Source: an uncultured Lachnoclostridium sp.
Lineage (GTDB): Bacteria; Bacillota; Clostridia; Lachnospirales; Lachnospiraceae
Direction: 5' to 3'
Assembly (NCBI GenBank): GCA_930986645.1
Contig: CAKNJS010000005.1
Span: 1 to 64,000 of the forward strand
DNA length: 64,000 bases
Each line of letters opens with the position of its first letter. The stretch's first letter is position 1. Position numbers and translations under genes: made by a program. Below, in pieces: positions 1,764 through 22,456 of this stretch. Under the pieces are notes generated by a model, which was not told where the DNA came from, did not search any database, and saw only the letters and a program-made list of their open reading frames with translations.

Positions 1764-1811
1764 GCTCCGGCATCTGGAATTCTCCGGATTCAGCTGAATA
1801 ATGTGATAATT

Positions 1812-1860
1812 AAAAAGGCGGTTTATCTTGTGTAATATCACGGATAAACTGCCTTTTTGC
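1812..1860 (+). terminator. Rho-independent terminator of tpiA
   Basis: A 16-bp stem with one mismatch pairs 1812-1827 (aaaaaggcggtttatc) with 1843-1858. The loop is 15 bases and the downstream arm ends in TTTTT. It separates glycolytic transcription from the ribokinase promoter. Confidence 0.9.
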
Positions 1861-1869
1861 AAATTAAAA

Positions 1870-1915
1870 ATGACATGTGTCATTTATAGTTAGTGATAAA
1901 CATGGTATATATAAA
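1870..1915 (+). promoter_or_regulatory. Putative Crp/Fnr-type operator and promoter of the ribokinase gene
   Basis: The palindrome ATGACATGTGTCAT occupies 1870-1883, with arms extended to AAATGAC/GTCATTT. A -10-like TATATA lies at 1906-1911, exactly 22 bp further on, and no recognisable -35 is present. With a start near 1918 the palindrome is centred at about -41.5, the class II activator position. The same half-sites and spacing recur at 4337-4378 beside the Crp-family regulator gene. Confidence 0.6.
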
Positions 1916-1949
1916 GCAAAATCAAGTGCGGTATTTAAAGGAGGATAAA

Positions 1950-2849
1950 ATGAAGAGAATACTCATTGTCGGCAGCCTGAATATGGATACGGTTCTTGAG
2001 GTTCCCTATCTGCCAAGAGCTGGTGAGACAATCACGGGTAAGAATATTACTCTGATACCCGGCGGAAAAGGCGCGAATCAGGCTTATGCCGCGGGAAAGC
2101 TCGGAGGAGACGTTGTAATGGCAGGTGCTGTAGGGGATGACAGCTTTGGAGACAGGCTCAGAGCGAATCTAAAAGAAGTGGGAGTAAATACGACTCCCAT
2201 TGTTGAGATTTCCGGTGTTCCAACAGGGCAGGCATACATTATTGTAGACGATAATGGAGAGAATTCCATTACGCTGATCCGGGGGACAAATGGAGAGGTT
2301 ACCTGTAAAATGGCAGAGAGCTGGAAAAAGTATATTGAAACATGTGATATTTTAATTATGCAGCTCGAAATCCCGCTGGATACAGTGCTGTATGTGAAAA
2401 ATCTGGCTGTCAATCTGGGAAAGACCGTGATACTAGATCCCGCTCCTGCAAAAAAAGAGTTTCCAGATGGATTCTGGCAGGGAATAGATTACATAAAGCC
2501 AAATGAGACAGAGCTTTCCATTTTGACAGGAAAAGCGATAGATACGAAGGAAAATATTATTAATGGCGCGTCAGAAATGTTGGATAAAGGCGTGAAAAAC
2601 GTAATTGTTACTCTTGGGGAAAAAGGATGCTTTCTTGTTAACAGGTCAGTACAAAAATTTTTCCCGGCAGAAAAAGTAAAAGCAGTGGATACGACAGCAG
2701 CGGGAGATTGTTTTACAGCGGCTTTTGCTCTTGCTTTAAGCCGCGGTGAAACTGAAGACGAGGCTGTAAATTTCGGACAAAAAGTTTCTTCCATTGCAGT
2801 GACGAGAAAAGGGGCCCAAACCTCAATACCGGATGCATCAGAACTGTGA
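1950..2849 (+). CDS. rbsK: Ribokinase (PfkB family sugar kinase)
   Basis: Phosphorylates ribose to ribose-5-phosphate with ATP in the cytosol. At 299 residues it is full length for RbsK. It starts with the typical ILIVGSLNMDTVLEVP strand, carries the substrate motif GGKGANQAYAAGKLGG around residues 40-55, and ends with the PfkB signature DTTAAGDCFTAAFALAL (residue ~250) holding the catalytic Asp. An upstream in-frame ATG at 1893 exists, but the ATG at 1950 has AAAGGAGG six bases upstream, and the upstream extension would overlap the predicted promoter. Its partner genes (nucleoside hydrolase, phosphorylase, deoB) lie 7-10 kb downstream and share its operator. A nucleoside kinase role is possible, but the N-terminus is ribokinase-like. 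Confidence 0.88.
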   Translation: MKRILIVGSLNMDTVLEVPYLPRAGETITGKNITLIPGGKGANQAYAAGKLGGDVVMAGAVGDDSFGDRLRANLKEVGVNTTPIVEISGVPTGQAYIIVDDNGENSITLIRGTNGEVTCKMAESWKKYIETCDILIMQLEIPLDTVLYVKNLAVNLGKTVILDPAPAKKEFPDGFWQGIDYIKPNETELSILTGKAIDTKENIINGASEMLDKGVKNVIVTLGEKGCFLVNRSVQKFFPAEKVKAVDTTAAGDCFTAAFALALSRGETEDEAVNFGQKVSSIAVTRKGAQTSIPDASEL

Positions 2850-2889
2850 AACCAAAAGTACGTCTGTGATCTTTCATGAAAATAATAAA

Positions 2890-2919
2890 AAACAGGGAGG
2901 CTGTCAAGGCTCCCTGTTT
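2890..2919. terminator. Bidirectional terminator between convergent rbsK and the TudS-like gene
   Basis: aaacagggag (2890-2899) pairs perfectly with ctccctgttt (2910-2919) around a 10-base loop. There are A-runs on the left and T-rich sequence on the right, which suits both converging transcripts. Confidence 0.8.
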
Positions 2920-2939
2920 ATTGTACATATGTGTAGTAA

Positions 2940-3503
2940 TCATATTGACTCAAGCATCTTCATACATTTTTCGGGCTCGGGAGCATAGAGAGAGGAAATC
3001 CGGACTTTATCGGATAATCCTTCCTCTTCAAGCATTTCTTTCAGTACCTGAATCAAGATACCGGAGCCTTTACCGAGTTTACACGAGGCAAGGGTTTCGT
3101 CCAGTCCGGTTCGACCATCAAAAGAACCATACCAGTCCGCATAACAGGTATAGTCTGCTCCGCAGCTTGGGCTGCCGTCTACGCCAACAAATCCCAGCAC
3201 TTCAAACATGTCATCATTTTGCAGATATTCTTTTAACTGCTGTATAATCGGTGTCAGGATATCGCGGCAATGTGTGCGGAAAAAGACATTATCAAACTGA
3301 TTGCTGACATGTCCCCAGCGTCTTGCACCATAGAGAGTGAATTCGGGACAGGGCAGCTGGATGAGCTGTATATCACTGTCGATTGCTTTGCGCATAAATT
3401 TTTTCCTGAGGTTCTCTTCAGCGTCAATCTCCTGCTGATTATACAGGACAACTTTGGCTGATGTATTCAGAATACAGTGAGATACAAATAAGATTTTTTT
3501 CAT
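2940..3503 (-). CDS. CD3072/TudS-like putative desulfidase (DUF523-related)
   Basis: A 187-residue protein related to the DUF523/TudS group, whose characterised members remove sulfur from thiouracils using a [4Fe-4S] cluster held by three cysteines. Three matching cysteines are visible: C10 in the N-terminal SHCILN, C52 in QLPCPEF and C114 in the hallmark VDGSPSCG. The start at 3503 was chosen because AAAGGAGG lies eight bases upstream; a 14-residue extension is open but has no ribosome site. It sits between ribokinase and the Crp-type regulator of a nucleoside salvage island, which fits a role in desulfurating thiolated nucleobases. The family call is firm; the substrate is inferred. Confidence 0.72.
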   Translation of the reverse strand: MKKILFVSHCILNTSAKVVLYNQQEIDAEENLRKKFMRKAIDSDIQLIQLPCPEFTLYGARRWGHVSNQFDNVFFRTHCRDILTPIIQQLKEYLQNDDMFEVLGFVGVDGSPSCGADYTCYADWYGSFDGRTGLDETLASCKLGKGSGILIQVLKEMLEEEGLSDKVRISSLYAPEPEKCMKMLESI

Positions 3504-3535
3504 AAAATCGTCCTCCTTTGTAAAATCTACAGACA

Positions 3536-3564
3536 AATCTAACACAATTGATTCTAAAATTCAA
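3536..3564 (-). promoter_or_regulatory. Sigma-A-like promoter of the TudS-like gene
   Basis: On the minus strand TTGAAT (3564-3559), a 17-bp spacer and TAGATT (3541-3536) precede the start by about 35 bases. No copy of the ATGAC-N4-GTCAT palindrome is present here, so this gene may be constitutive or read through from the regulator gene 93 bp upstream. Confidence 0.45.
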
Positions 3565-3596
3565 GAAAAATTTTAAGGCGTTACCGCAATTTTATA

Positions 3597-4292
3597 TCAT
3601 AGTATGACATCACCATATCGAACAGACAATTTTTCCAGATTCTTTTGCTCGATGATAATTTTCCCTTTTCGGAGTTCTATATAGCCTTTTCCCTCAAAGT
3701 CTGCGAGATGACGGTATAAGGTGCGCAGGTTGATATGGAGTATTTCGGCAAGATCTTTTCGGGTAAGCGGACAGACATAAGGTGTCTTCCGCTGTGCTTG
3801 AAGAAAAAGATAATGTCCCAGAATATCTTTGGAGTGAAACAGCTGGTTTGTTTCAGCACGATCCATGTTCGACTTGAGCGAGGCCCCCATGGTTACCAAA
3901 GTTTGGTAACAGATATAGGCGTTTTCCCGTATGATTGTTTCAAAAACAGATATAGGAATGCGAAGGATATAACATTTGCTCTGAGCGACTACAAAAGCTG
4001 TGTAAGCATTTATTTTGTTCAAATATTCAACCATTCCCATGATATCTAATGGTTCGATAAAGTCAATGACATTATCATTGTCCCAGCTGATACAGTTTAA
4101 AACACTGACACGCCCGGAGATAAGTATGTAGATATAGCGGCATGGATCGCCTTGGCTGATGATGGTTTCCTCTTTCTGAAAGTCCAGCAGACGTGCCTCG
4201 GATAGATACTCCTGAAGCGCGGGATATGGGTTTATAGGATTATACGCACCGGAAAAAATGATTTCTAATGCTTTGGAAGTTTTGCTGTACAT
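3597..4292 (-). CDS. Crp/Fnr-family transcription regulator (YeiL-like)
   Basis: A 231-residue regulator. Residues ~36-115 form the cyclic-nucleotide-binding fold (the QKEETIISQGDPCRYIYILISG strand series), and residues ~172-210 hold a winged helix with LTRKDLAEILHINLRTLYRHL as recognition helix. The start at 4292 is an ATG with a GGGG-type ribosome site; the longer frame to 4343 begins with TTG inside the operator. It is transcribed divergently from the ECF operon, and a palindromic site lies in the shared spacer, so autoregulation is likely. In E. coli the Crp-type regulator gene yeiL adjoins the nucleoside hydrolase gene rihB, a parallel to this context. The effector is unknown, and no cysteine cluster for Fe-S sensing is seen. 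Confidence 0.82.
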   Translation of the reverse strand: MYSKTSKALEIIFSGAYNPINPYPALQEYLSEARLLDFQKEETIISQGDPCRYIYILISGRVSVLNCISWDNDNVIDFIEPLDIMGMVEYLNKINAYTAFVVAQSKCYILRIPISVFETIIRENAYICYQTLVTMGASLKSNMDRAETNQLFHSKDILGHYLFLQAQRKTPYVCPLTRKDLAEILHINLRTLYRHLADFEGKGYIELRKGKIIIEQKNLEKLSVRYGDVIL

Positions 4293-4336
4293 ATGGCGAA
4301 TATACCCCTTTCTTTTGTTAAAAATAGTAGAGAAAG

Positions 4337-4378
4337 ATGACAAACGTCATTTTTTTAATTATACATATGTGCTAATCT
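4337..4378 (+). promoter_or_regulatory. Putative Crp/Fnr-type operator and extended -10 promoter of the ECF operon
   Basis: ATGACAAACGTCAT lies at 4337-4350, followed after exactly 22 bp by an extended -10 (TGC-TAATCT, hexamer 4373-4378) and no -35. The geometry equals that before ribokinase (centre about -41.5). A second, wider-spaced half-site pair, TGAC-N6-GTCA, lies at 4402-4415. The divergent regulator gene begins 45 bp away on the other side. Confidence 0.6.
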
Positions 4379-4490
4379 ACAGTCAAGTTAAAGGTCTCGG
4401 TTGACAAAAAAGTCATCCGTGCAGAACAACTTAGTCAAAAGGAGGACAGAAAGCAGTATGCAGACAAACAAAGGAAAAGGAGAGAGAAAA

Positions 4491-5102
4491 ATGCAGGAAA
4501 AAAAGTATTCAATTAAAACTGATTTTTCAATGTTAGCAATTCTGATTATTCCAATCAGTGTGGCCGTTAATTTTGTAGGAGGACAGCTGGCATCTATTTT
4601 GAAACTTCCGATGTATCTGGATACGATCGGAACGATTTTTGCCGGTATGCTGTGCGGTCCATGGGTCGGAGCAGTAGCAGGTGGTTTGACAAATGTTGTA
4701 ACTGGAATTGCAAACCCGGTCAACTTCGCTTTTATCCCGGTTAATATTCTGGCAGGTCTGGTTACCGGATTCCTCGCAAGAAAAAAAATGTTTAATGTAT
4801 GGTGGAAATGGATTATCTCTATGATCCTGATGGCAGTCGTTGCAGTAGTATCCTCAGCACCAATCGTAGTTCTTGTATACGGAGGTGTAACCGGAAGTGG
4901 AACATCATTGATCACAGCGGCGGCAATGGCAGCAGGAGCAAATATCTGGGCGGCATTTTTTGGAACAGAGGGAATTTTCCAGCTGCTTGACCGTGTGATT
5001 TCTTTTATCATCTGCCGCTTGGTAATTCAGGTAATTCCACCCAGAACACTTGTGAAATTCGGATGCGGAATGAATTACATTAAGGAGAAAGATAAAAAAT
5101 AA
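4491..5102 (+). CDS. ECF transporter substrate-binding S component
   Basis: Integral membrane protein of 203 residues with about five to six hydrophobic segments: LAILIIPISVAVNFVGG near the start, IGTIFAGMLCGPWVGAVAGG, the NILAGLVTGFLA turn, ISMILMAVVAVVSSAPIVVLVYG and a C-terminal FISF segment. S components give energy-coupling-factor importers their specificity. The small-residue-rich second segment and the following TNVVTGI are typical of the fold. It is the first gene of the island's ECF operon, followed by T, A and A' genes. The start at 4491 has AGGAGA seven bases upstream; an ATG at 4458 with GGAGG twelve bases upstream is the alternative. Substrate is not readable from sequence; nucleoside or ribose is inferred from the downstream enzymes. 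Confidence 0.75.
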   Translation: MQEKKYSIKTDFSMLAILIIPISVAVNFVGGQLASILKLPMYLDTIGTIFAGMLCGPWVGAVAGGLTNVVTGIANPVNFAFIPVNILAGLVTGFLARKKMFNVWWKWIISMILMAVVAVVSSAPIVVLVYGGVTGSGTSLITAAAMAAGANIWAAFFGTEGIFQLLDRVISFIICRLVIQVIPPRTLVKFGCGMNYIKEKDKK

Positions 5103-5173
5103 TAATTCTGCATCCTCCTTTTGACCTATGGCACAATGTTGTATTTGAGTAAAAAGAAAAGGAACGCTTGTTT

Positions 5174-5977
5174 ATGGAAAATTATATTGAAAAAATACAG
5201 ATACGAAAATCAAATAAACTTGCAGGACTTTACCCTTCGACAAAAGCGCTGATCGTACTTATGTATGCGGTCTGTACCTTTATCGTCAATACGATAGAGG
5301 TCACAGATATCGGCCTTCCGCTATTTCTTATTCCACAGTTTTTGGTGATTCTTATACTGTGCAAAGCAAGCGGAGTCCTTGGAAGGTGCATAAAAGCGCT
5401 GAATACGGTGGCTGTTGTAGCGCTGATCATCCTGCTGGTTCAGACGTTTCTTGTACCGGGCGGAGATCTGATATGGCGGTTCGGTATCTTGCGGATCTAT
5501 GAAAGAGGATTGCGGACAGCTGTCTCCCTGTCATTTTTGATTATGAATATTGCAGGAATTTTTGTATGGCTGTTCCAGACAACAGAAAACAAAGAAATAT
5601 CAAGAGCTCTTGAAGATTCTGGAATGAATTATAAGGCAGCATATGTATTTACTTCTACGCTTCAGATGATCGAAATACTGGGAAGAAACAGTAAAACGAT
5701 CATGAATGCACAGAAGGCAAGAGGTGTAGAGACGGAGGGTAATCTTATTGTCAGGGCAAAGGCATTCTTCCCTTCACTGGTGCCTTTGATCTTAGGGGCA
5801 GTCATTAGTTCAGAGGAGCGTGTTCTTACTCTGGAAGCAAGAGGATTTACAATGCAGGGGCCAAAGACACATTTGTTTGAACTGAAGAAAAGCGGCTGGG
5901 AAGGAAAGGCGGCCGCTGCGTCAGTTCTAATCACAGTGCTTCTGCTTGCAGGGAGGATTATGTTATGGCTGTTGTGA
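5174..5977 (+). CDS. ecfT: ECF transporter transmembrane T component
   Basis: Membrane scaffold that links the S component to the two ATPases. It has 267 residues. Several hydrophobic segments occur (LIVLMYAVCTFIVNTI, LFLIPQFLVILILC, VVALIILLVQTFL, SFLIMNIAGIFVWLF). Two coupling-helix motifs characteristic of EcfT are present, NAQKARGVETEG around residue 180 and LEARGFTMQG around residue 218. The start used is the ATG at 5174, with AGGA ten bases upstream; TTG at 5168 is too close to that site. Its 3' end overlaps the first ATPase gene by 13 bp, indicating translational coupling. Confidence 0.9.
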   Translation: MENYIEKIQIRKSNKLAGLYPSTKALIVLMYAVCTFIVNTIEVTDIGLPLFLIPQFLVILILCKASGVLGRCIKALNTVAVVALIILLVQTFLVPGGDLIWRFGILRIYERGLRTAVSLSFLIMNIAGIFVWLFQTTENKEISRALEDSGMNYKAAYVFTSTLQMIEILGRNSKTIMNAQKARGVETEGNLIVRAKAFFPSLVPLILGAVISSEERVLTLEARGFTMQGPKTHLFELKKSGWEGKAAAASVLITVLLLAGRIMLWLL

Positions 5978-6828
5978 TTGAATGTAAAGATGTGACTTAT
6001 TATTATCCATTGACGGAAAAGCCGGCAGTCGAGGACCTGAATTTAAAGATTGAAAGCGGTAAATTCTATGGAGTAGTGGGGGAAAACGGCGCTGGAAAGA
6101 CAACTTTCTGCGCACTGCTCAGAGGATTCGCTCCGGGATTTTACAAAGGTGAATTAAAAGGCGAGGTGCTGGTAGAGGGAAAGAAAACAATAGAATACGG
6201 AGGGGAACTGTCCGCTAAGATCGGATATGTATTCCAAAATCCATTTACACAGATAAGCGGTGTGAAAGATACCGTGTTTGAAGAAGTTGCTTACGGATTG
6301 GAGAACTTCGGTGTCCCTGTGGAAGAGATTGAGAGACGCGTGATCGAAGTTATGAAAATGACAGATATTGAGGCGCTTGCAGAAAAAAATCCCTTCGACC
6401 TATCGGGCGGACAGATGCAGAGAGTGGCGCTGGCATCCGTAATTGTGCTTGAGCCTGATATCCTGATTATTGATGAACCTACAAGCCAGCTCGATCCGGA
6501 GGGAACGGAGAGTGTATTCCGAATTATCAAAGCTTTAAAAGATAGAAAAAAGACGATCATTCTGGTAGAGCATAAGATAGATCTGATTGCGGAATATGCG
6601 GATGAGGTTCTGGTGTTTGAGAAAGGACACCTGATTAAATCAGGAGATAAAGAAAAGATTCTTTCTGATATTTCTCTCCTTGATCGCGGAGTGTCTCTTC
6701 CTCAGGTGGCCATTCTGGGAGCAAAGCTCAAAGAGAAAGGATTCCCGCTTCGGAAGATTCCGGTGACGGAGGATCAGGCTGTAAGGATGATCCGGGAATC
6801 GTTAAAGGAGGGTAAGCAGGATGCATGA
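5965..6828 (+). CDS. ecfA: ECF transporter ATPase A1
   Basis: ATP-binding subunit of 287 residues that powers the ECF importer on the cytoplasmic face. Motifs: Walker A GENGAGKTT (39-47), Q-loop in VFQNPFTQ (~90), intact signature LSGGQ (146-150), Walker B ILIIDEP (166-172), D-loop SQLD and switch His in LVEHK (~204). A C-terminal ~70-residue extension follows, as usual for ECF ATPases. It overlaps ecfT by 13 bp and the second ATPase by 8 bp, so the set is one tightly coupled unit. Confidence 0.92.
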   Translation: MAVVIECKDVTYYYPLTEKPAVEDLNLKIESGKFYGVVGENGAGKTTFCALLRGFAPGFYKGELKGEVLVEGKKTIEYGGELSAKIGYVFQNPFTQISGVKDTVFEEVAYGLENFGVPVEEIERRVIEVMKMTDIEALAEKNPFDLSGGQMQRVALASVIVLEPDILIIDEPTSQLDPEGTESVFRIIKALKDRKKTIILVEHKIDLIAEYADEVLVFEKGHLIKSGDKEKILSDISLLDRGVSLPQVAILGAKLKEKGFPLRKIPVTEDQAVRMIRESLKEGKQDA

Positions 6829-7633
6829 TTTGATACTTAAAAATGTAAGCTTTTCTTATCCGGGAGGATTTCTGGCAGTAGATGATATTAATATGGAGAT
6901 TAAGGCGGGCGAAAATGTAGCCATTGTAGGTCAGAACGGCGCCGGAAAAACAACTACTGTCAAGATGATGAATGGTCTGTTAAGGCCGACAAAGGGCGAT
7001 GTGCTGATCGGAGATATGAATACAAAAGATTATACGACCGCACAGGTATCAAGAGTAGTCGGCTATGTATTTCAGAATCCGGATGACCAGATTTTTCATT
7101 CTACTGTAGAAAGTGAAGTACGTTTTGGTCCGAAGATGATGAAACTAGAACCTGAGGAGGAAAATTCGCGGGTTGAAGAAGCACTTAAGATTACAGGGAT
7201 GGATAAGTATAGAGAAGAAAATCCATATAACCTTCCTCTTTCTACAAGGAAGTTTGTGACAATCGCTGCAGTTATCGCTATGAATACAGATGTTCTTATT
7301 TTTGATGAGCCGACTGCGGGACAGGATATGGAAGGAAATAAGAGATTGGCAGACATATTGCGCATCCTTCATAAGCAGGGGAAAACAGTGATCACTATTT
7401 CCCATGATATGGAATTTGTATCCATGAACTTTGATAAAGTAATCGTAATGGCAAAGAAAAAAATTGTAAGGACTGGCACTCCGCGGGAGATATTCTGGGA
7501 TATGGATGCTCTTGATAAGGCAATGTTAAAACAACCATATGTAAGCAGGGTATGCAGGGCTCTTGGCATAGAGGGTGGTGTGATCTGTATTGAAGATGCG
7601 ATAAATGAGATAATGAGCAGGGAGAATGTATGA
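6821..7633 (+). CDS. ECF transporter ATPase A2 with degenerate signature
   Basis: Second ATPase of the importer, 270 residues. Walker A GQNGAGKTT (37-45), Q-loop VFQNPDDQ and Walker B VLIFDEP (158-164) are normal, and the switch His is in TISHDME. The ABC signature reads LPLSTRK (138-144) in place of LSGGQ. This leaves one canonical and one altered ATP site in the A1/A2 dimer, a known theme among asymmetric ABC dimers. It overlaps A1 by 8 bp and the MFS gene by 4 bp (ATGA). The role is firm; the effect of the altered signature is inferred. Confidence 0.9.
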   Translation: MHDLILKNVSFSYPGGFLAVDDINMEIKAGENVAIVGQNGAGKTTTVKMMNGLLRPTKGDVLIGDMNTKDYTTAQVSRVVGYVFQNPDDQIFHSTVESEVRFGPKMMKLEPEEENSRVEEALKITGMDKYREENPYNLPLSTRKFVTIAAVIAMNTDVLIFDEPTAGQDMEGNKRLADILRILHKQGKTVITISHDMEFVSMNFDKVIVMAKKKIVRTGTPREIFWDMDALDKAMLKQPYVSRVCRALGIEGGVICIEDAINEIMSRENV

Positions 7634-8802
7634 AAAGGAATAATGTATTGACAGCGTTTCTTGCTTTTGGAATGTATTTTTTGACTGGTGCTGCGTGTAT
7701 TGTAGTGGGAAGCAGTTTGACGCATCTGGCAGAGATGTATGATATGAGTCTGGACAAGGTGGTTCTCCTCGGATCTGCATATGCATTTGGAAGAGTGCTG
7801 ACGGTTTACGGCACAGGACATCTGGTAGAAAAGATTGGAACCAAAAAAGTTCTGGGCATAGGGGTAATACTTATAATGGCATATCTGATCGGCCTGCCTC
7901 TGGTGGTAAATTTCTATGCCGGTATGTTCTTTGCATGTCTGGGCGGAATTGGAATGGGTGCCCAGGATACAGTGTGTCCGGTCCTATTAAGCGCGGTATT
8001 CAAAAGAAATTATGCCGGCTCGTTAAGTGTGGGTCAGGCAATGTTCGGTCTTGGCAGTTTTGCTACACCATTTCTGATCGGCATACTGCTCACATGGCAT
8101 CTTCCGTTTTATGGAGCCTATTATATATTACTGGTCATTCCAGTTCTGATGCTGATCTGCATTCCTTTTGTACATCTGCAGGAGCATAGTGCGGAGGGGA
8201 AAAAAACCGAACAGGTAGAGCCGCTGTATACAAAAAGCAAACTTATAGCATGGGGTGCGCTTTTGATCTTATGTGCAGCGTACAGTGCTGTTGTAAATAC
8301 GCTTGGACTCTACATATCAAGTTTTGCTGAAAGTATCGGTATTTCTTCCGCAAACGCAGCATTTATGCTCACTGTATATAATGTGGGAAGCGTGACAGGA
8401 TCATTTGTGTTTGTATTGATCCTGAGAAAAGTCAAACCACAGACTGTATTGATCATCAACAATCTTTTTGCATTAGCGGCAGTTGTGCTTGTCCTTGGTG
8501 TAGATCACACGGCAGCCTTATTTTCGGGATTTCTGTGTGCAGGATTTTTCCTAGGCGTGCTTTTCAGCGTAATCGTTACCGTAGCTACAAGGATTGGATA
8601 CGAGCGTATCAGTATTGCAAGCTCTATTGTGGCAACTGCAGGGGGAGGATCTGATATCCTGACACCTATCATAACAGGCTTTTTAGTGGGGCGGATGGGA
8701 ATTCGTATCTCGTTTTACTATACAGCTCTGATGATCGTAATAAGTCTTGCTGCGGCATTGCTCATAAAGATTAATACCAGTGAAAAGAAAAAGGAGGAAT
8801 AA
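7630..8802 (+). CDS. Major facilitator superfamily permease
   Basis: Polytopic membrane protein of 390 residues with about twelve hydrophobic segments. The conserved loop between helices 2 and 3 (GTGHLVEKIGTKKVLGIGV, residues ~58-76) is present, and a central cytoplasmic linker with charged residues lies around 190. The ATG overlaps the ATPase stop as ATGA, so it belongs to the same transcript. In a salvage operon it could be a second nucleoside or sugar importer, or exporter of unused base released by phosphorylase and hydrolase. Substrate cannot be read from the sequence. Confidence 0.82.
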   Translation: MKRNNVLTAFLAFGMYFLTGAACIVVGSSLTHLAEMYDMSLDKVVLLGSAYAFGRVLTVYGTGHLVEKIGTKKVLGIGVILIMAYLIGLPLVVNFYAGMFFACLGGIGMGAQDTVCPVLLSAVFKRNYAGSLSVGQAMFGLGSFATPFLIGILLTWHLPFYGAYYILLVIPVLMLICIPFVHLQEHSAEGKKTEQVEPLYTKSKLIAWGALLILCAAYSAVVNTLGLYISSFAESIGISSANAAFMLTVYNVGSVTGSFVFVLILRKVKPQTVLIINNLFALAAVVLVLGVDHTAALFSGFLCAGFFLGVLFSVIVTVATRIGYERISIASSIVATAGGGSDILTPIITGFLVGRMGIRISFYYTALMIVISLAAALLIKINTSEKKKEE

Positions 8803-8806
8803 GTTT

Positions 8807-9580
8807 ATGTCTATATCAAGTAAAGAAGTATTAAATAAGGAAGGAAAACAGTATCATATTTGTTGTGGCAAAGGTGATATCGGAAAATATGTTCTGCTTC
8901 CCGGAGATCCGTTCCGCACAGATATCATAGCAAAACATTTTGATGATCCGGTGCTTGTCGCTCACAACAGGGAGCATAAGACATGGACAGGAACGTTAAA
9001 CGGCGAAAAAGTTTCAGTGACAAGTACAGGGATGGGCTGCCCTTCAGCTGCGATAGCGGTCGAAGAATTGATCCACTGCGGAGCAGAAGTATTCATACGG
9101 ATAGGAACCTGCGGAAGAGTCTGCCCGGAGAGCTATGATGAGAGTCTGGAAGGTGTAATCATTACGGGATCTGTCAGGGATGAGGGAACGACTGTACACT
9201 ATGTGCCTATCGAATATCCGGCAATGGCGGACCGGCATGTGACAGATGCTCTGGCAAGGGCCTGTGCAGAGAAGGGATACAAATTTGCGGAGGGAATTGC
9301 TCAATCCAAAGATTCGTTCTATGGCCAGCATGATCCAGACAGTATGCCGAACAGCGGGCGTCTCCATCAGAGATGGGAGGCTTGGGAAAAGAGCAGAGTT
9401 ATGGCATCAGAGATGGAGACAGCAGCTCTGTTTATTGTTTCCTCTATACGCGGCGCAAGGGCAGGGGCAATCATGGCTTACGGAAGCATGAATGATCATA
9501 CGATTGAGCTTGCGTGTGATGCTGTCAAAATATTAATCGAAGAAGACAAAAAGAGGCAGGAAAAAGGCGATGATAAGTAA
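8807..9580 (+). CDS. udp: Uridine phosphorylase family enzyme
   Basis: Cleaves uridine (or a related nucleoside) with phosphate to base and ribose-1-phosphate. At 257 residues it has family length. It shows the NP-I series: VLLPGDPFR near residue 30 (phosphate loop), STGMGCPSAAIAVEEL (~75), RIGTCG (~100) and the ribose-binding EMETAALF (~205). It resembles E. coli Udp throughout. The start at 8807 has AAGGAGGAA seven bases upstream; the longer frame to 8780 starts inside the permease gene. It overlaps the next gene by 11 bp. The exact base is inferred. Confidence 0.88.
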   Translation: MSISSKEVLNKEGKQYHICCGKGDIGKYVLLPGDPFRTDIIAKHFDDPVLVAHNREHKTWTGTLNGEKVSVTSTGMGCPSAAIAVEELIHCGAEVFIRIGTCGRVCPESYDESLEGVIITGSVRDEGTTVHYVPIEYPAMADRHVTDALARACAEKGYKFAEGIAQSKDSFYGQHDPDSMPNSGRLHQRWEAWEKSRVMASEMETAALFIVSSIRGARAGAIMAYGSMNDHTIELACDAVKILIEEDKKRQEKGDDK

Positions 9581-10517
9581 AAAGAAAATTATAATTGATA
9601 CCGACTGCGGCTCAGACGATGCCATGGCTATTGCGATGGCTTTAAACGACCCTCACTACGAAGTGGTGCTTATTACGACCGTATCTGGAAATGTAGCAAT
9701 GGAGCAGGCGACACTTAATACGCTGACAACGATTGAATATGCAGGTACATACGAGCCGCCGGTGTATAAAGGCACAGCCAAGATGCTGTTAAAAGAACTT
9801 GTTTTTGCTCATGAGACTCATGGACTTGATGGAATGGGCGATATCGGTCTCAGGCCGCAAAGGCTGAAGGCGGCAGGAGAAAACGGAGTGGAAAAGATGC
9901 TTGAGACACTTCGGAACAGTGAGGACGGGGAAATTGATATTATAGCATTGGGACCCCTGACTAATCTGGCTCTGGCTATACGCTTGGATTATAAAGCAAT
10001 GATGAAAGCCGGCCGCATCGTAATTATGGGGAGTGCAGGTCTGGGAGCGGGAAATGTTTCTCCGGTGGCGGAGTTTAATATCTGGCAGGACGCGGAGGCG
10101 GCCAAGATTGTGACAGAATCGGGGCTGAATGAAATTGTATATGTCGGATGGGATGCGTGTCTGGGAGATTGTATGTTGAATCCGCAGGAGATAGAGGAGA
10201 TTCGTAACAGTGGAGAACTGGGGAAATTTGCAATAGACTGCAATAAGAATCTGCTGGAACTAAATAGAGAACGATTCGGCGACAGCTATCTTGATATGGC
10301 AGATCCATCCGCTGTAGCCGCCGCTCTTTATCCGGAATGCATTGAGCATTGTGAAAAATATTACTGCGAGGTAGATGTCTCGCCGGGGCCGAGCTATGGT
10401 GCAGTTCTGGTAGACGTAAATCATTTCAGCGAAAAAGAACCGAATGTATATATATGCAGTAAATTAAAGGCAAAAGAGTACAAGGATTATATTTACAGAA
10501 TGTTAAGAGTCAGATAG
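9570..10517 (+). CDS. Nucleoside hydrolase (inosine/uridine-preferring family)
   Basis: Hydrolyses nucleosides to base and free ribose using a tightly bound Ca2+. It has 315 residues. The N-terminal metal motif is DTDCGSDDA (residues ~10-18) rather than the common DTDPGxDDA, a change at the proline position only, so the metal aspartates are kept. The second hallmark, NVSPVAEFNIWQDAEAA (~150-166), carries the Asn/Glu/Asn ribose contacts and Asp. Having hydrolase beside phosphorylase means the locus yields both free ribose (for ribokinase) and ribose-1-phosphate (for DeoB). It overlaps udp by 11 bp. Confidence 0.9.
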   Translation: MISKKKIIIDTDCGSDDAMAIAMALNDPHYEVVLITTVSGNVAMEQATLNTLTTIEYAGTYEPPVYKGTAKMLLKELVFAHETHGLDGMGDIGLRPQRLKAAGENGVEKMLETLRNSEDGEIDIIALGPLTNLALAIRLDYKAMMKAGRIVIMGSAGLGAGNVSPVAEFNIWQDAEAAKIVTESGLNEIVYVGWDACLGDCMLNPQEIEEIRNSGELGKFAIDCNKNLLELNRERFGDSYLDMADPSAVAAALYPECIEHCEKYYCEVDVSPGPSYGAVLVDVNHFSEKEPNVYICSKLKAKEYKDYIYRMLRVR

Positions 10518-10529
10518 GAGGTAAACAGC

Positions 10530-11744
10530 ATGGAAGAACTCAAGGTAAAATTCTTAATGGGCCCGGCAGAGTGTAACGACAAATACATTCCGGAATATAG
10601 CAGACAGTTTCTTGCAGAGCTGGAAAAGGTGCTTGGCATGAAAGTATCCTGTGCTGAAATAGAGGAGGTAAAGGCTCAGCCGCTTCCTGTCTATTTTATC
10701 GCATCAGGCGGAGCAGAACAGGGATTTAAAGAATTGCATACTCAGACAAAAGAACCATATATCCTTCTGACAACACCTGCCTATAATTCTCTGGCGGCAG
10801 CTATGGAGATTATGGGGTATCTTCAGGAAAATGGAAAGAGAGGAGAAATTCTCCATGGTTCTATGGATAAGATTGCAGAACGTCTCAAAGTCCTTGTGAG
10901 AGCAGCGCGTGCCAAAGAAAAGTTAAATCATATGCGTCTGGGATGCTTTGGCACGCCCGGGGGTCTGATCGCGAGTGATGCAGATCCGGATGTACTCAGA
11001 GCTTCCAGCGGGATGGAACTAATCGTCTATGAACTGGAGGAACTGGTTGAAGAATACCAAAAAGGCGGATATCCGGAAAATCAGTATACAGAAGAACTGA
11101 AAAAGAAAAATTATGATCCGCAGGAAATTGAGAAAGCACTTAATGTGTATGGTGCGCTGAAAAGGTTGATCGAAAAACATGATCTTCATGCGGTATCTGT
11201 AAAATGTTTCGATCTGTTGGAACTCATCCATACTACAGGGTGTCTCGCTTTGGCAATCCTGAATGCGGAAGGCATTCCTGCTGCGTGTGAAGGGGATCAA
11301 AAGAGTCTGGTAAGTATGGCGATAATGAAAGTTTTGACAGGTAAATCAGGATTTATGGCAAATCCAAGCTGTATGGATCCGGATAACAATGAAATAATTT
11401 TTGCTCACTGTACACTTCCAATCGACATGCCTGACAGCTATTTCCTGACTACACACTTTGAGTCTGGAATTGGTGTGGCAGTAGCGTGTGATATTGAGCC
11501 CCAACAGATGACGATTTTTAAATGTGATGATACATTGACAAGATACTATGCTGGAAGAGCACAGCTGGTAGAGACTATGCATAGAAAAGATTTATGCCGT
11601 TCGCAGATGAAACTCCGGCTGGAGGATGGTACGGAGTATTTTGCAAAGCGCCCTGTAAGCAATCATCATATTATATGTAAGGGTGATTGGAAAGAGGTCA
11701 TTGATGAATATTTTAAAGAGGCGGGGCGGGTGACTGCTGTATGA
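10530..11744 (+). CDS. L-fucose/L-arabinose isomerase-like protein, substrate unknown
   Basis: A 404-residue protein of the fucose/arabinose isomerase fold. The C-terminal half is clearest: [22 protein letters not shown] (~236-256) with presumptive metal ligands E254 and D256, a [14 protein letters not shown] strand, and SNHH around residue 378 supplying the third ligand histidine. The N-terminal Rossmann-like part is shorter than in E. coli FucI (~590 residues). AGGAGG lies seven to eight bases before ATG. Its stop overlaps the deoB start (ATGA), so it is part of the salvage operon. Aldose-ketose isomerisation of ribose or deoxyribose is conceivable, but no such step is needed in known nucleoside catabolism. 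Fold call firm, function open. Confidence 0.72.
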
Positions 11745-12931
11745 ATAAGTTCAAACGGATTTTTGTGATTGTGATTGATTCACTGGGGATCGGTGCAATG
11801 CCGGATTCGGAGAAATTTGGAGATGTGGGAGTAAATACGCTTGGCCATATTGCGGAGTCGGTCGGTTCATTTCACATACCATTTCTGCAGAAATTGGGAC
11901 TGGCGAATTTATGCCCGTTAAAAACTGTTGTACCGGTGGAGCATCCGATCGGATATTATGGAAAATTAAATGAAAAAAGCCGTGGAAAAGATACTATGAC
12001 CGGTCACTGGGAAATGATGGGGCTGGAAGTAAAAGCACCTTTTAAAACCTTTACAGATAATGGATTTCCCCCTGAATTGATTGCTGAACTGGAAAAGCAG
12101 ACCGGAAGGAAAGTGATTGGGAATAAGAGTGCCAGCGGTACAGAAATTCTGGATGAGCTGGGTGAGGAAGAAATTGCAACTGGTCATATGATTGTATACA
12201 CCTCTGCAGATTCAGTGCTACAAATCTGCGGAAATGAGGAAACATTCGGCCTTCAGGAACTATATCGCTGTTGTGAAATCGCCAGAAAAATCACTATGAA
12301 AGATGAGTGGAAAGTAGGGCGTGTTATTGCCCGGCCTTATGTGGGGAAAAAGCGTGGAGAGTTTAGAAGAACAAGCAACCGTCATGACTATGCGTTGAAA
12401 CCTTTCGGAAAAACAGTGCTAAACAGTCTGAAGGAAAATGGATTTGATGTGATCTCAGTCGGAAAAATCAATGACATTTTTGCGGGAGAAGGAATTACTT
12501 GTGCATTGCATTCTAACAGTTCTGTACATGGAATGGAGCAGACGATTCAGATAACCAAAGAAGAGTTCCGCGGTTTGTGCTTTGTAAATCTTGTGGATTT
12601 CGATGCTTTGTGGGGGCACAGAAGAAATCCGGAGGGATATGCAAAAGAGTTAGAGCGCTTTGACGAGAAACTGGGAATATTGATGGGACAGTTAAAAAAG
12701 GAAGATCTTCTTATTATTACTGCAGATCACGGCAATGATCCCACTTATAAGGGAACGGACCATACAAGGGAAAAGACTCCTTTTCTGGCTTGGTCCCCGT
12801 CTTTTGAAAGGAGCGGCCTGCTTCCAGAAATGGAAACATTTGCTGTGATTGGAGCAACTGCAGCAGACAATTTTGATGTCCCTATCCCGGAAAACTGCAT
12901 AGGCTCTTCGTGCTTGCCCTTGTTAATATAA
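11741..12931 (+). CDS. deoB: Phosphopentomutase
   Basis: Converts ribose-1-phosphate (or the deoxy form) to the 5-phosphate using two Mn2+ ions. At 396 residues it has normal family length. Metal motif [11 protein letters not shown] is at residues 12-22, the catalytic threonine T85 sits in KDTMTGHWE, and the second metal cluster [18 protein letters not shown] is at ~330. T85 is at the same residue number as in the studied Bacillus cereus enzyme. Last gene of the ECF operon, overlapping the isomerase-like gene by 4 bp. It takes up the product of the phosphorylase encoded upstream. Confidence 0.95.
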
Positions 12932-12954
12932 TGAAGAAAGTCAGACGTTGATAC

Positions 12955-12983
12955 TTGACTCCTTTTTCCTATGGGCATAATAT
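12955..12983 (+). promoter_or_regulatory. Sigma-A promoter of the DUF6688 gene
   Basis: TTGACT (12955-12960), a 17-bp spacer and TAATAT (12978-12983) lie directly after the deoB stop. The TTG that would open the longest reading frame is part of this -35 box, so translation must start further on. Confidence 0.75.
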
Positions 12984-13026
12984 TTATACAAATTATGCTG
13001 ATAGGGGAGAGGAGTCATTTGCCATC

Positions 13027-14259
13027 GTGAATGAAAAGATTTTAAAACACAGTATTCTTTTATCCGCAGCGGTTTCCGTGATTCTGGGTGCTGCGGTTAC
13101 GTTTTTGCTTCTGGGAGAAGAAGACAGTCTTATAGAGGGCTTCATTGCAGGCCTTCTGATCGGAATTTTTGCAATTTATCCGCTCATACTGACTCTTGTC
13201 AATTTCGCGGCTGTATTTTGCGGCTGTACAGATCCCCGGCTGATCCGGAAGGGGAGACATTTTGAATGGATTACCATTGTACTGGGGGTACTCTATTCTT
13301 TATTTATACTTCCGTTTGCCGATATTACGTTTTCCGACTGGACAGTCACCCTCTGCAATACCCAGAAACACACGCCGGTCTGGACAGAAGGAGCGCTTAC
13401 TGTTGTGATTCTTGCAGTGGTCGGGATTTTGGGATATCTGTTTCTCTCATGCAGCCGGATTTCAAAGGTGCCGCCCCTCATTACAGTGCTGGAGATTGCG
13501 GCGATGTATCTGGGGATGCTGCAGTGTATTCTGTGGATTATTCAGATTATCCGTCTGGAAGCTGTCTATCTGTACTTGTGCCTTTTCCCATTGAATTGTA
13601 TTTTGATCGGGATTAAGGTAATCCGCCAGAAAATTATGGAGTGGGGTAAGATACAGCGTGAAGAGAGCGAAAAGGCCGGAGCGGTCAGCGGATTCCAAAA
13701 CCGTCATCTGGAATGGCTGAACCGTCATCTGGAACGCTCTTCTGTCTGGCCGGCGGCTGCGTTTCTCCTTATGTGGCCTATGCTGGGAATCATTATCTGT
13801 ATCCTGATCTTATTCGGCCAGCGGCCGGACAGTGCCATACGCGCGTGGACCGAGACGAGCGACTGGAATCTGTCCCGGGAAATCGCTCCGCAGAATATCT
13901 ATTATGATGAACACTATCTTTGCACCGTTGCCGCAGGCGGACACCGAAGGGTGGTAAAGCCGATACGTATGGGAGTGAGGCACGGTCATCCGGTGATCGT
14001 GAACCGGCAGCTCTGTGTGGCGAATGCATTTGAACAGATACTGGAGGAACGCATGCCGAACCTGCACCGGAATGTCAGAAACTTCTATGACAGATACGGA
14101 TTTCCGGTGGCTGAGATGATCCGTTCGCCATATATTGCCGACGTGATTTACATCGTGATGAAACCACTGGAATGGATTTTCTTAATCGTGATCTATATGA
14201 CGGATGTGAAGCCGGAGAATCGAATCGCTGTGCAGTACCTTCCAAAGAGAACGGCATGA
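13027..14259 (+). CDS. DUF6688-type multi-pass membrane protein
   Basis: About 410 residues. The first ~190 form a membrane region (ILLSAAVSVILGAAVTFLLL, FIAGLLIGIFAIYPLILTLV, ITIVLGVLYSLFILPF, VVILAVVGILGYLFLS), and two more membrane segments follow (~235 and near the C-terminus). The distal soluble part, with LCTVAAGGHRRVVKP, VNRQLCVANAFEQILEE and FYDRYGFPV, is what I recognise as DUF6688; its function is unknown. The GTG at 13027 follows GGGGAGAGGAG by 12 bases. The longer frame starting at TTG 12955 is rejected because that TTG lies in the -35 box. It has its own promoter and is probably independent of its neighbours. Confidence 0.68.
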   Translation: MNEKILKHSILLSAAVSVILGAAVTFLLLGEEDSLIEGFIAGLLIGIFAIYPLILTLVNFAAVFCGCTDPRLIRKGRHFEWITIVLGVLYSLFILPFADITFSDWTVTLCNTQKHTPVWTEGALTVVILAVVGILGYLFLSCSRISKVPPLITVLEIAAMYLGMLQCILWIIQIIRLEAVYLYLCLFPLNCILIGIKVIRQKIMEWGKIQREESEKAGAVSGFQNRHLEWLNRHLERSSVWPAAAFLLMWPMLGIIICILILFGQRPDSAIRAWTETSDWNLSREIAPQNIYYDEHYLCTVAAGGHRRVVKPIRMGVRHGHPVIVNRQLCVANAFEQILEERMPNLHRNVRNFYDRYGFPVAEMIRSPYIADVIYIVMKPLEWIFLIVIYMTDVKPENRIAVQYLPKRTA

Positions 14260-14323
14260 CAGGTGTATTTTGAGAGCCCTTTCGAAGCGGGAATGGTTCA
14301 TGGCTTAAGGATGATAGTGCATC

Positions 14324-14352
14324 TTGAAAAATGTATGAAAAGCGGTTACAAT
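14324..14352 (+). promoter_or_regulatory. Sigma-A promoter of gpmI
   Basis: TTGAAA (14324-14329), 17-bp spacer, TACAAT (14347-14352), about 48 bases before the gpmI start. Confidence 0.7.
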
Positions 14353-14400
14353 AAGTAACGGGACAAGGCTCCCAAATGTACAATAAAAGGAGATATGGAT

Positions 14401-15939
14401 ATGAGCAAGAAACCAACCGTATTGATGATATTAGACGGCTACGGCTTAAGAGATGACAAGCATGGCAATGCTGTTGCAGAGGCGGCTACACCGGTTATGG
14501 ACAAATTGATGGCTGAGTGCCCGTTCGTGAAAGGAAATGCCAGCGGTATGGCAGTAGGACTTCCGGACGGACAGATGGGAAACTCTGAGGTAGGACATCT
14601 GAACATGGGTGCAGGCCGTATCGTATATCAGGATCTTACAAAGATCACAAAGGCGATCCAGGATGGAGATTTCTTTGAGAATAAAGCACTTGTGGAAGCG
14701 TGTGAGAATGTAAAGAAAAATAATTCTGCACTTCATCTGATGGGACTTGTGTCTGACGGAGGCGTACACAGCCACAATACACATATTTACGGACTTCTCG
14801 AGCTGGCAAAGAGACAGGGAATCGAGAAGGTATATGTACACTGCTTCCTTGACGGACGTGACACACCGCCGGCATCCGGTAAAGAGTATGTAGAAGAGCT
14901 GGAAGCAAAGATGAAAGAAATCGGTGTGGGCGAGGTCGCTACAGTTGCAGGACGCTACTATGCAATGGATCGTGATAACCGCTGGGACCGCGTAGAGAAA
15001 GCCTACAGAGCTCTCGTAAATGGAGAGGGAGATCAGGCAGATTCCGCTGCAGAGGGAATTCAGGCTTCTTACGATAAGGACGTGACAGATGAGTTCGTTG
15101 TGCCGATGGTAATTATGAAAGACGGCGCTCCGACAGCGACGGTAAAAGACGGAGATTCCGTTATCTTCTTTAACTTCCGTCCGGACCGTGCAAGAGAGAT
15201 CACAAGAGCATTCTGCGATGATGATTTCACAGGATTTGACAGAGGCGAAAGAGTAAAGACCACATATGTATGCTTCACAGAGTATGATGTGACGATCCCG
15301 AATAAACTGGTTGCATTTGTGAAGGAAGAGATCACAAATACATTCGGCGAGTTCCTTGCAGCTCACAATCTGAAGCAGGCACGTATCGCTGAGACAGAGA
15401 AGTATGCTCATGTAACATTCTTCTTCAACGGCGGCGTAGAGGAGCCGAATCCGGGAGAGGACCGTATCCTTGTAAAATCTCCGAAGGTTGCCACATACGA
15501 CCTGAAACCGGAGATGAGCGCATACGAAGTGTGTGACAAGCTCTGCGAAGCGATCCGTTCCGGTAAATACGATGTAATTATCATCAATTTCGCAAACCCG
15601 GATATGGTAGGACACACAGGAGTTGAGAATGCAGCGATCAAGGCAATTGAGGCTGTTGACGAGTGTGTAGGAAAAGCAGTTGACGCCATCAAGGAAGTTG
15701 ACGGTCAGATGTTTATCTGTGCCGACCACGGAAATGCGGAGCAGCTGATCGACGAGGAGACCGGAGAGCCGTTTACAGCTCATACGACTAATCAGGTTCC
15801 GTTCATCCTTGTAAATGCGGATCCGTCCTATAAACTGAGAGAGGGCGGATGCCTTGCAGACATCGCTCCGACTCTGATCGAGATGATGGGAATGGAACAG
15901 CCGAAAGAGATGACAGGAAAATCTCTGATCGTGAAATAA
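14401..15939 (+). CDS. gpmI: 2,3-bisphosphoglycerate-independent phosphoglycerate mutase
   Basis: Interconverts 3- and 2-phosphoglycerate through a phosphoserine and two Mn2+ ions. The 512 residues are the family's usual length. The first metal motif is [12 protein letters not shown], the nucleophile S62 lies in [17 protein letters not shown], the substrate motif is FLDGRDTPP (~155), and [12 protein letters not shown] (~440) and [10 protein letters not shown] supply further metal ligands. Of the two ATGs, the one at 14401 is eight bases after AAAAGGAG; 14395 is too close. It is a glycolytic gene like pgk and tpiA but lies 12.6 kb away, with the salvage island between. A 574-codon antisense frame across it is a shadow. 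Confidence 0.97.
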
Positions 15940-15981
15940 GAATATCAGCGTCAATACAGAGGTCATAAATACAAATATATG

Positions 15982-22427: not shown

Positions 22428-22456
22428 ATTATACGACAGAATTTTTAAAAAGACAA
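22428..22456 (-). promoter_or_regulatory. Sigma-A promoter of the activase gene
   Basis: Read on the minus strand: TTGTCT (22456-22451), 17-bp spacer, consensus TATAAT (22433-22428). Leader length is about 75 nt. Confidence 0.7.

Follow-up and report, generated by a model that had tools for sequence, protein, structure and literature searches.

The window, that is, the whole 64-kb stretch of DNA analysed, carries a compact group of genes between tpiA and gpmI. The initial annotation had listed these genes at 1864–12,931 and had seen nucleoside and ribose salvage as their theme. All of them are present there as open reading frames that match the expected families, and these families fit the theme. 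The ribokinase gene rbsK (1950–2849, + strand) is separate and upstream, and has an ATG start and a Shine-Dalgarno-like GGAGG recognised by eye. Two genes follow that are oriented opposite to the operon: one for a TudS-like putative desulfidase of the CD3072 family (2940–3506, − strand) and one for a YeiL-like Crp/Fnr regulator (3597–4298, − strand). The operon lies on the + strand and encodes an ECF substrate-binding S component (4491–5102), an ECF T component (5174–5977; Pfam CbiQ), the ECF ATPases A (5965–6828) and A' (6821–7633), both with family matches, and an MFS permease (7630–8802; Pfam MFS_1, and TsgA-like, though under the TsgA family cut-off). It continues with a uridine phosphorylase (UP)-family protein (8807–9580), a nucleoside hydrolase (NH; 9570–10,517), an isomerase-like protein with the AraA/FucI fold (ISO; 10,530–11,744), and a phosphopentomutase, deoB (11,741–12,931), which is the genome's second copy. 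From T through deoB, adjacent genes overlap or are at most 12 bases apart, and the S–T gap is 71 bases. Here and below, gene names given by eye have no family search behind them.

These genes occupy an insertion of approximately 11.2 kb (1764–12,977, no strand assigned), as defined against an empty site in a relative (G680, locus L101) whose gpmI is 99% identical and whose gene order is pgk-tpiA-DUF6688-gpmI. In the window, the DUF6688 gene lies between deoB and gpmI. The window segments 982–1762 and 12,978–15,969 match L101 with 97.4% and 94.5% identity (BLAST) and are only 70 bases apart there. The spacing of tpiA and gpmI, a comparison that the initial annotation had proposed and for which it described the two genes as usually close, was examined in 15 gpmI stretches, 11 from the same genus and four from other families of the order. 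In 13 of these, tpiA lies upstream of gpmI; the other two end at a contig edge, and island genes occur in none of the 15. The proposed left edge, 1864, was also well placed, as an operator-like site 5' of rbsK begins at 1869. The GC content of the island is 0.42–0.45, compared with 0.47–0.48 for the flanking genes. Among genus relatives (L102–L106, L110, L111), the tpiA–gpmI interval differs in gene content from genome to genome, which marks the site as variable and makes it look like an insertion hotspot. Since the source genome is a draft of 95 contigs (89% complete, 2.4% contamination), a wrong join may be present; an operator common to rbsK and the operon argues against one inside the island.

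The regulator matches Pfam cNMP_binding and HTH_Crp_2, and its score against PRK10402 (56.8 bits) is far under the cut-off of 180. The palindrome AATGACANNTGTCATT lies 5' of the operon in nine aligned intergenic regions, and eight of these carry its core TGACANNTGTCA without a mismatch. The window copy (4336–4351, no strand), found between yeiL and S by alignment and site search, has two mismatches, one of them in the core. An exact copy of the 16-mer occurs at 1869–1884 (no strand), 5' of rbsK. With a third match at 22,449, the window holds three matches with at most two mismatches, against a mean of 0.36 expected, and none of 100 dinucleotide shuffles reached three. The exact core was found in 17 of the 179 loci examined, L148 and L152 included, and in none outside this operon family; the 17 represent 11 distinct genomes, some loci being repeated. 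It is absent from L145 and L149, which have a GntR-like regulator (by eye), and from L151, which has a 30% YeiL-like gene. The YeiL-like protein would be expected to act at these AATGACANNTGTCATT sites. At Rfam gathering scores, the only matches in the 64-kb window are two tRNAs, so no listed riboswitch controls the island. A wider regulon was considered and rejected: searching for the 16-mer with at most one mismatch returned 27 forward matches in 14 genomes compared with 17 for the reversed control, and as nine of the 27 are the known operon and rbsK sites, the remaining 18 are at control level. Six other operator-like sites were examined, of which five fall within coding sequences and the sixth lies between genes without an evident link.

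The enzymes of the island are assigned with differing precision. Ribokinase (TIGR02152, 355.6 bits; cut-off 299.65) and phosphopentomutase (TIGR01696, 546.1 bits; cut-off 341.2) score above their family cut-offs, and the NH matches PF01156 with 267.6 bits. The UP matches Pfam PNP_UDP_1 and falls outside the TIGR01718 equivalog (240.4 bits; cut-off 280.3), and its best solved relative is the uridine phosphorylase 3qpb (242 bits, E 4.9e-71; the next scores 133). ISO has the AraA/FucI fold (VIA-align) and matches AraA_central (28.0 bits; cut-off 24), with a score far from the L-arabinose isomerase equivalog (PRK02929, 30.9 bits; cut-off 622). It differs from AraA and FucI in sharing just 11–17% identity with them, in its length of 404 aa, and in its place within nucleoside operons; the second acidic AraA motif is not conserved in ISO in that alignment. 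Distant ISO relatives adjoin unrelated genes. Given its fold, ISO probably isomerises a pentose of the pathway. Similar sulfatase-family genes lie near ISO in two lineages (L243:461–8654, by eye; L152:7273–9009, Pfam Sulfatase).

The TudS-like protein scores 161.8 bits against NF045597, the CD3072 family (cut-off 130), and retains the Fe-S cysteines C11, C53, and C115, together with E55, S112, and S114. An alignment of 15 homologues shows no variation at C53, E55, S112, P113, or C115, nor at C11 in the 14 sequences that extend to it; only the two most divergent proteins lack S114. These conserved residues fit the three cluster cysteines and the catalytic Glu and Ser of TudS, as given in the accessible parts of PMC10611767, and Lys18 might correspond to the phosphate-binding Arg17 in our own placement of the alignment. 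A phmmer search returned no solved structure at E ≤ 1 even though a TudS structure is published (PMC10611767), which points to a divergent TudS branch. Judging from its motif, the protein is predicted to desulfurise thio-uridines. For the known TudS enzymes, PMC10611767 describes a preference for 4-thio-UMP and weak binding of 2-thio forms, which argues, by analogy, against a 2-thio substrate here. In 299 genomes of the family, 15 CD3072-type tudS matches were found at E ≤ 1e-33, and nine of these have an S match no more than 1.2 kb away according to a manual comparison of match positions. None of the remaining six has an S nearby among the matches listed, and five of the six adjoin an ABC transporter of the L144/L171 kind. 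At a separate locus (L174:8397–13,843), a 36% TudS-like gene is accompanied by an amino-acid ABC transporter, a gene weakly related to ISO (26%), and one of the cysteine-desulfurase family.

The ECF transporter has a dedicated module, its S and T components and both ECF-type ATPases being encoded in the same operon, as had been proposed. The S component scores above the Pfam ECF_trnsprt cut-off (46.9 bits; cut-off 30.7) and below that of its best named family, CD3073 (NF045596, 124.7 bits; cut-off 180). In a FastTree phylogeny of 36 S proteins, obtained from 42 by removing six same-genome repeat loci, the S components of ISO operons (including L034) form a clade with support 0.987. Four solo S genes paired with tudS form a clade of their own (1.0); tudS is therefore paired with more than one S clade. 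A further separate clade (1.0) consists of six NH-adjacent S genes, five of which also adjoin a radical SAM gene that we take to be QueL-like on the basis of a weak TIGR01210 match and background literature. This arrangement raises the question of whether the operon is a variant of queuosine or queuine salvage (QrtT-QueK-QueL). The distant S and NH relatives next to the QueL-like gene (L045, L048, L133–L135) favour such a variant, and so does the NH tree, a small sample in which the operon NHs form a subclade (0.832) joined as sister to the QueL-linked NHs (1.0), with E. coli RihB outside. Against it, the S components of the two kinds fall in separate clades, in a tree that holds no characterised QrtT; the tested ISO operons have no QueL-like gene, and UP and TudS belong to families that are not known to act on a deazapurine. 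Queuosine salvage is highly improbable on this evidence and was set aside because of the S tree and the QueL-like neighbours, despite the NH tree. In many Lachnospiraceae, S-like stretches also occur within open reading frames of about 700–1600 aa, which are perhaps fused ECF proteins.

The gene set recurs. Of the 299 genomes of the family, four others carry an S orthologue with more than 65% identity and four others an ISO with more than 50%, and a scan of genome contigs for ISO returned 17 loci. Genes at these loci were counted by tblastn because the ORF caller missed genes at some of them. UP and NH are each present at 12 of the 17 (one NH partial), tudS at 11, a complete S-T-A-A' at 10 (one more is cut by a contig end and one is degenerate), the MFS permease at 10, a TenA-like gene at seven, and an adjacent deoB at two. 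The recurring layout has tudS and yeiL divergent from ECF S-T-A-A', MFS, UP, NH, ISO, and sometimes deoB. The hosts include other Lachnospiraceae, such as Faecalicatena contorta, Diplocloster agilis, D. modestus, and ‘Candidatus Bariatricus faecipullorum’, as well as an Erysipelotrichaceae MAG; a locus in a ‘Leptolinea’ MAG may reflect incorrect binning. A close rbsK is seen in the window only (in L145 and L149, a 35% rbsK lies about 8 kb downstream in another cluster), and the island deoB duplicates the genome's second deoB at C57 (79% identical). rbsK and deoB are optional extras of the operon. The co-occurrence that the initial annotation had suggested checking in Lachnospiraceae is thus found, and its salvage theme, its ECF module, and its insertion all stand. 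Its picture of a self-contained island does not, and the set is no one-off, as the core of tudS, yeiL, transporter, UP, NH, and ISO is found in other genomes.

The importer is the more changeable part of this core. L144 keeps tudS, yeiL, UP, TenA, and ISO, but the ECF set is replaced there by an ABC transporter and a HAD-like gene; these two names rest on inspection by eye and on resemblance to L171, where the HAD and Ugp-like ABC genes were family-scanned. Similar HAD and ABC genes flank tudS in L172 and L173, and in L147 and L152 ISO has BMP-family (PnrA-like) lipoproteins in its vicinity. The exchange of ECF for ABC and the BMP lipoproteins elsewhere suggest that the enzymes are constant while the importer varies. 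At L151:11,385–12,718, S and T, and likewise both ATPases, appear fused by internal deletions beside ISO, in what looks like a decaying ECF module.

The TenA-like gene of relatives, like the shared operator, had not been part of the earlier picture. In seven relatives' operons, the TenA-like protein has Asn at the Asp44 position (7/7) and retains Tyr47, Tyr112, Cys135, Tyr163, and Glu205. Controls were 30 TenA loci from a search of the phylum (matches in 40 of 398 genomes), and 29 of them have Asp44 plus the same five residues. Asn occurs in a single control, which is also the closest of them (39% identity, L204), and it adjoins an NCS1-like permease and two amidohydrolases in L234 (by eye). 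According to the text available from PMC5623701, Asp44 of TenA binds amino groups of the pyrimidine ligand, and D44A greatly reduces activity. An Asn at this position would suit a ring with a 4-oxo group, for example uracil. The window's genome, an 89% complete draft, gave no TenA match, so its own version of the operon would be expected to act on thio-uridines or unmodified ones.

Where the ligand of an ECF S component is known, it is mostly a vitamin, and the TenA family includes thiaminase II; both points favour a thiamin or HMP ECF system that includes TenA in relatives. The L031 TenA scores 120.9 bits against TIGR04306 (thiaminase II), under the cut-off of 130, and the residue said to bind the pyrimidine amino group, in the part of PMC5623701 that was available, is Asn in all seven operon TenAs. 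UP, NH, DeoB, RbsK, and TudS would be a poor fit to such a system, and the window has no riboswitch match. S homologues in vitamin loci had been named in advance as an observation that would count against nucleoside transport; the neighbours of the island S are nucleoside genes, not vitamin genes, and its clade is apart from the queuosine-type loci. A vitamin system is scarcely credible and was set aside on the Asp44 change, the gene context, and the absence of a riboswitch.

What the initial annotation picked out is real and hangs together: a mobile operon for nucleoside salvage, probably under YeiL control, that belongs to a recurrent type. The preferred reading, given a probability of roughly 60%, is that of a horizontally acquired operon for pyrimidine-nucleoside salvage, controlled by the YeiL-like protein at AATGACANNTGTCATT, with thio- or otherwise modified uridines as the likeliest reason for the TudS gene. 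The regulator would act at the sites 5' of the operon and 5' of rbsK, and the dedicated ECF S-T-A-A', perhaps with the MFS permease, would move nucleosides. The TudS-like protein would strip sulfur from thio-uridines. As their families suggest, UP would split uridines into base and ribose-1-phosphate, which DeoB would convert to ribose-5-phosphate; NH would split other nucleosides into base and ribose, to be phosphorylated by RbsK, and ISO would isomerise a pathway pentose. The desulfidase, together with the altered TenA of relatives, suggests that the natural substrates may be modified uridines released by RNA turnover. In favour of this reading are the recurrence of the gene set, the operator common to the operon and rbsK, the nine of 15 strong tudS matches close to an S, the retained TudS residues, the Asn44 TenA of relatives, the exchange of the importer in L144 where UP, TenA, and ISO are kept, and the neighbourhood of yeiL in E. 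coli. Counting against it are the six of 15 strong tudS matches without a nearby S, the S score under the CD3073 cut-off, the substrate preference of known TudS enzymes, the lack of a TenA match in the window's draft genome, the chance of a wrong join in that draft, and the unrelated neighbours of distant ISO relatives.

A rival reading, close to that of the initial annotation, is plain salvage of uridine, inosine, and ribose, in which TudS would be a minor, co-regulated detoxifier of thiouridine. UP, NH, DeoB, and RbsK all fit ordinary nucleosides, and one stretch (G179, L034) has S-T-A-A', MFS, NH, and yeiL without tudS, UP, or ISO. However, tudS is the usual divergent partner and is paired with more than one S clade, and relatives carry the altered TenA in addition, so plain salvage is possible though somewhat doubtful. 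A more speculative and rather unlikely proposal is that operons of this family break down hypermodified wobble uridines of tRNA (such as mnm5s2U or cmnm5s2U), the window version being without the TenA step. The ECF transporter would import the nucleoside, TudS would remove the thio sulfur, UP or NH would free the sugar, and the Asn44 TenA relative, accommodating a 4-oxo ring, would cleave the amine from the 5-methylene group. No catabolic route for hypermodified uridines was found described in the literature searched; if true, the proposal would supply one, along with the first nucleoside role for this S clade.

Under the preferred reading of modified-pyrimidine salvage, several known systems are comparable. 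In E. coli, yeiL adjoins rihB, nupX, and pseudouridine genes (nupX-rihB-yeiL-psuTGK), so that, as in the island, a YeiL-type regulator lies by a nucleoside hydrolase, a nucleoside transporter, and genes for a modified nucleoside. That cluster lacks an ECF transporter, UP, TudS, and ISO, and the island regulator is a weak YeiL match. The C. difficile pair CD3072/CD3073 (NF045597/NF045596), for which the literature search found no paper, would place a TudS-related protein next to an ECF S, as in the island, if adjacency is read from the names. In contrast, the island S scores too low for the CD3073 family and comes with a T-A-A' module of its own, and solo S-tudS pairs belong to another clade. 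QrtT-QueK-QueL, as far as the accessible text of PMC11130926 describes it, shares the broad ECF S family and a nucleoside hydrolase that acts on an RNA-derived modified nucleoside; the island differs in its separate S clade, its UP and TudS, and its lack of a QueL-like gene. A search of the open-access literature, at the level of listings and the openings of abstracts, found no published description of this gene set. The parts are mostly known; their combination recurs in gut bacteria and suggests recycling of modified RNA nucleosides. Modified nucleosides of many kinds are released in the gut by RNA turnover, and what bacteria do with them is poorly understood. With a transporter, a regulator site, and enzymes of its own, the operon is a candidate that can be tested, and it offers a substrate hypothesis for the named, uncharacterised CD3072/CD3073 pair and for a divergent TenA group.

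Some related loci have further neighbours. In L033:9617–18,304, as in L145 and L149, a second ECF module directly follows ISO, with a dihydroorotase-like gene and, by eye, M20 peptidase, LacI regulator, and ribokinase-like genes. The stretch L147:6329–8642, upstream of ISO, contains genes that by eye are IscS-like and ThiI-like. Lastly, L039:7105–16,312 has a row of genes for UP, an ECF module, a PfkB-type kinase, a member of the ribose-1,5-bisphosphate/MTR-1-P isomerase family, BtpA, and a SIS-like protein, perhaps a bacterial pathway that takes nucleoside sugars through a bisphosphate.
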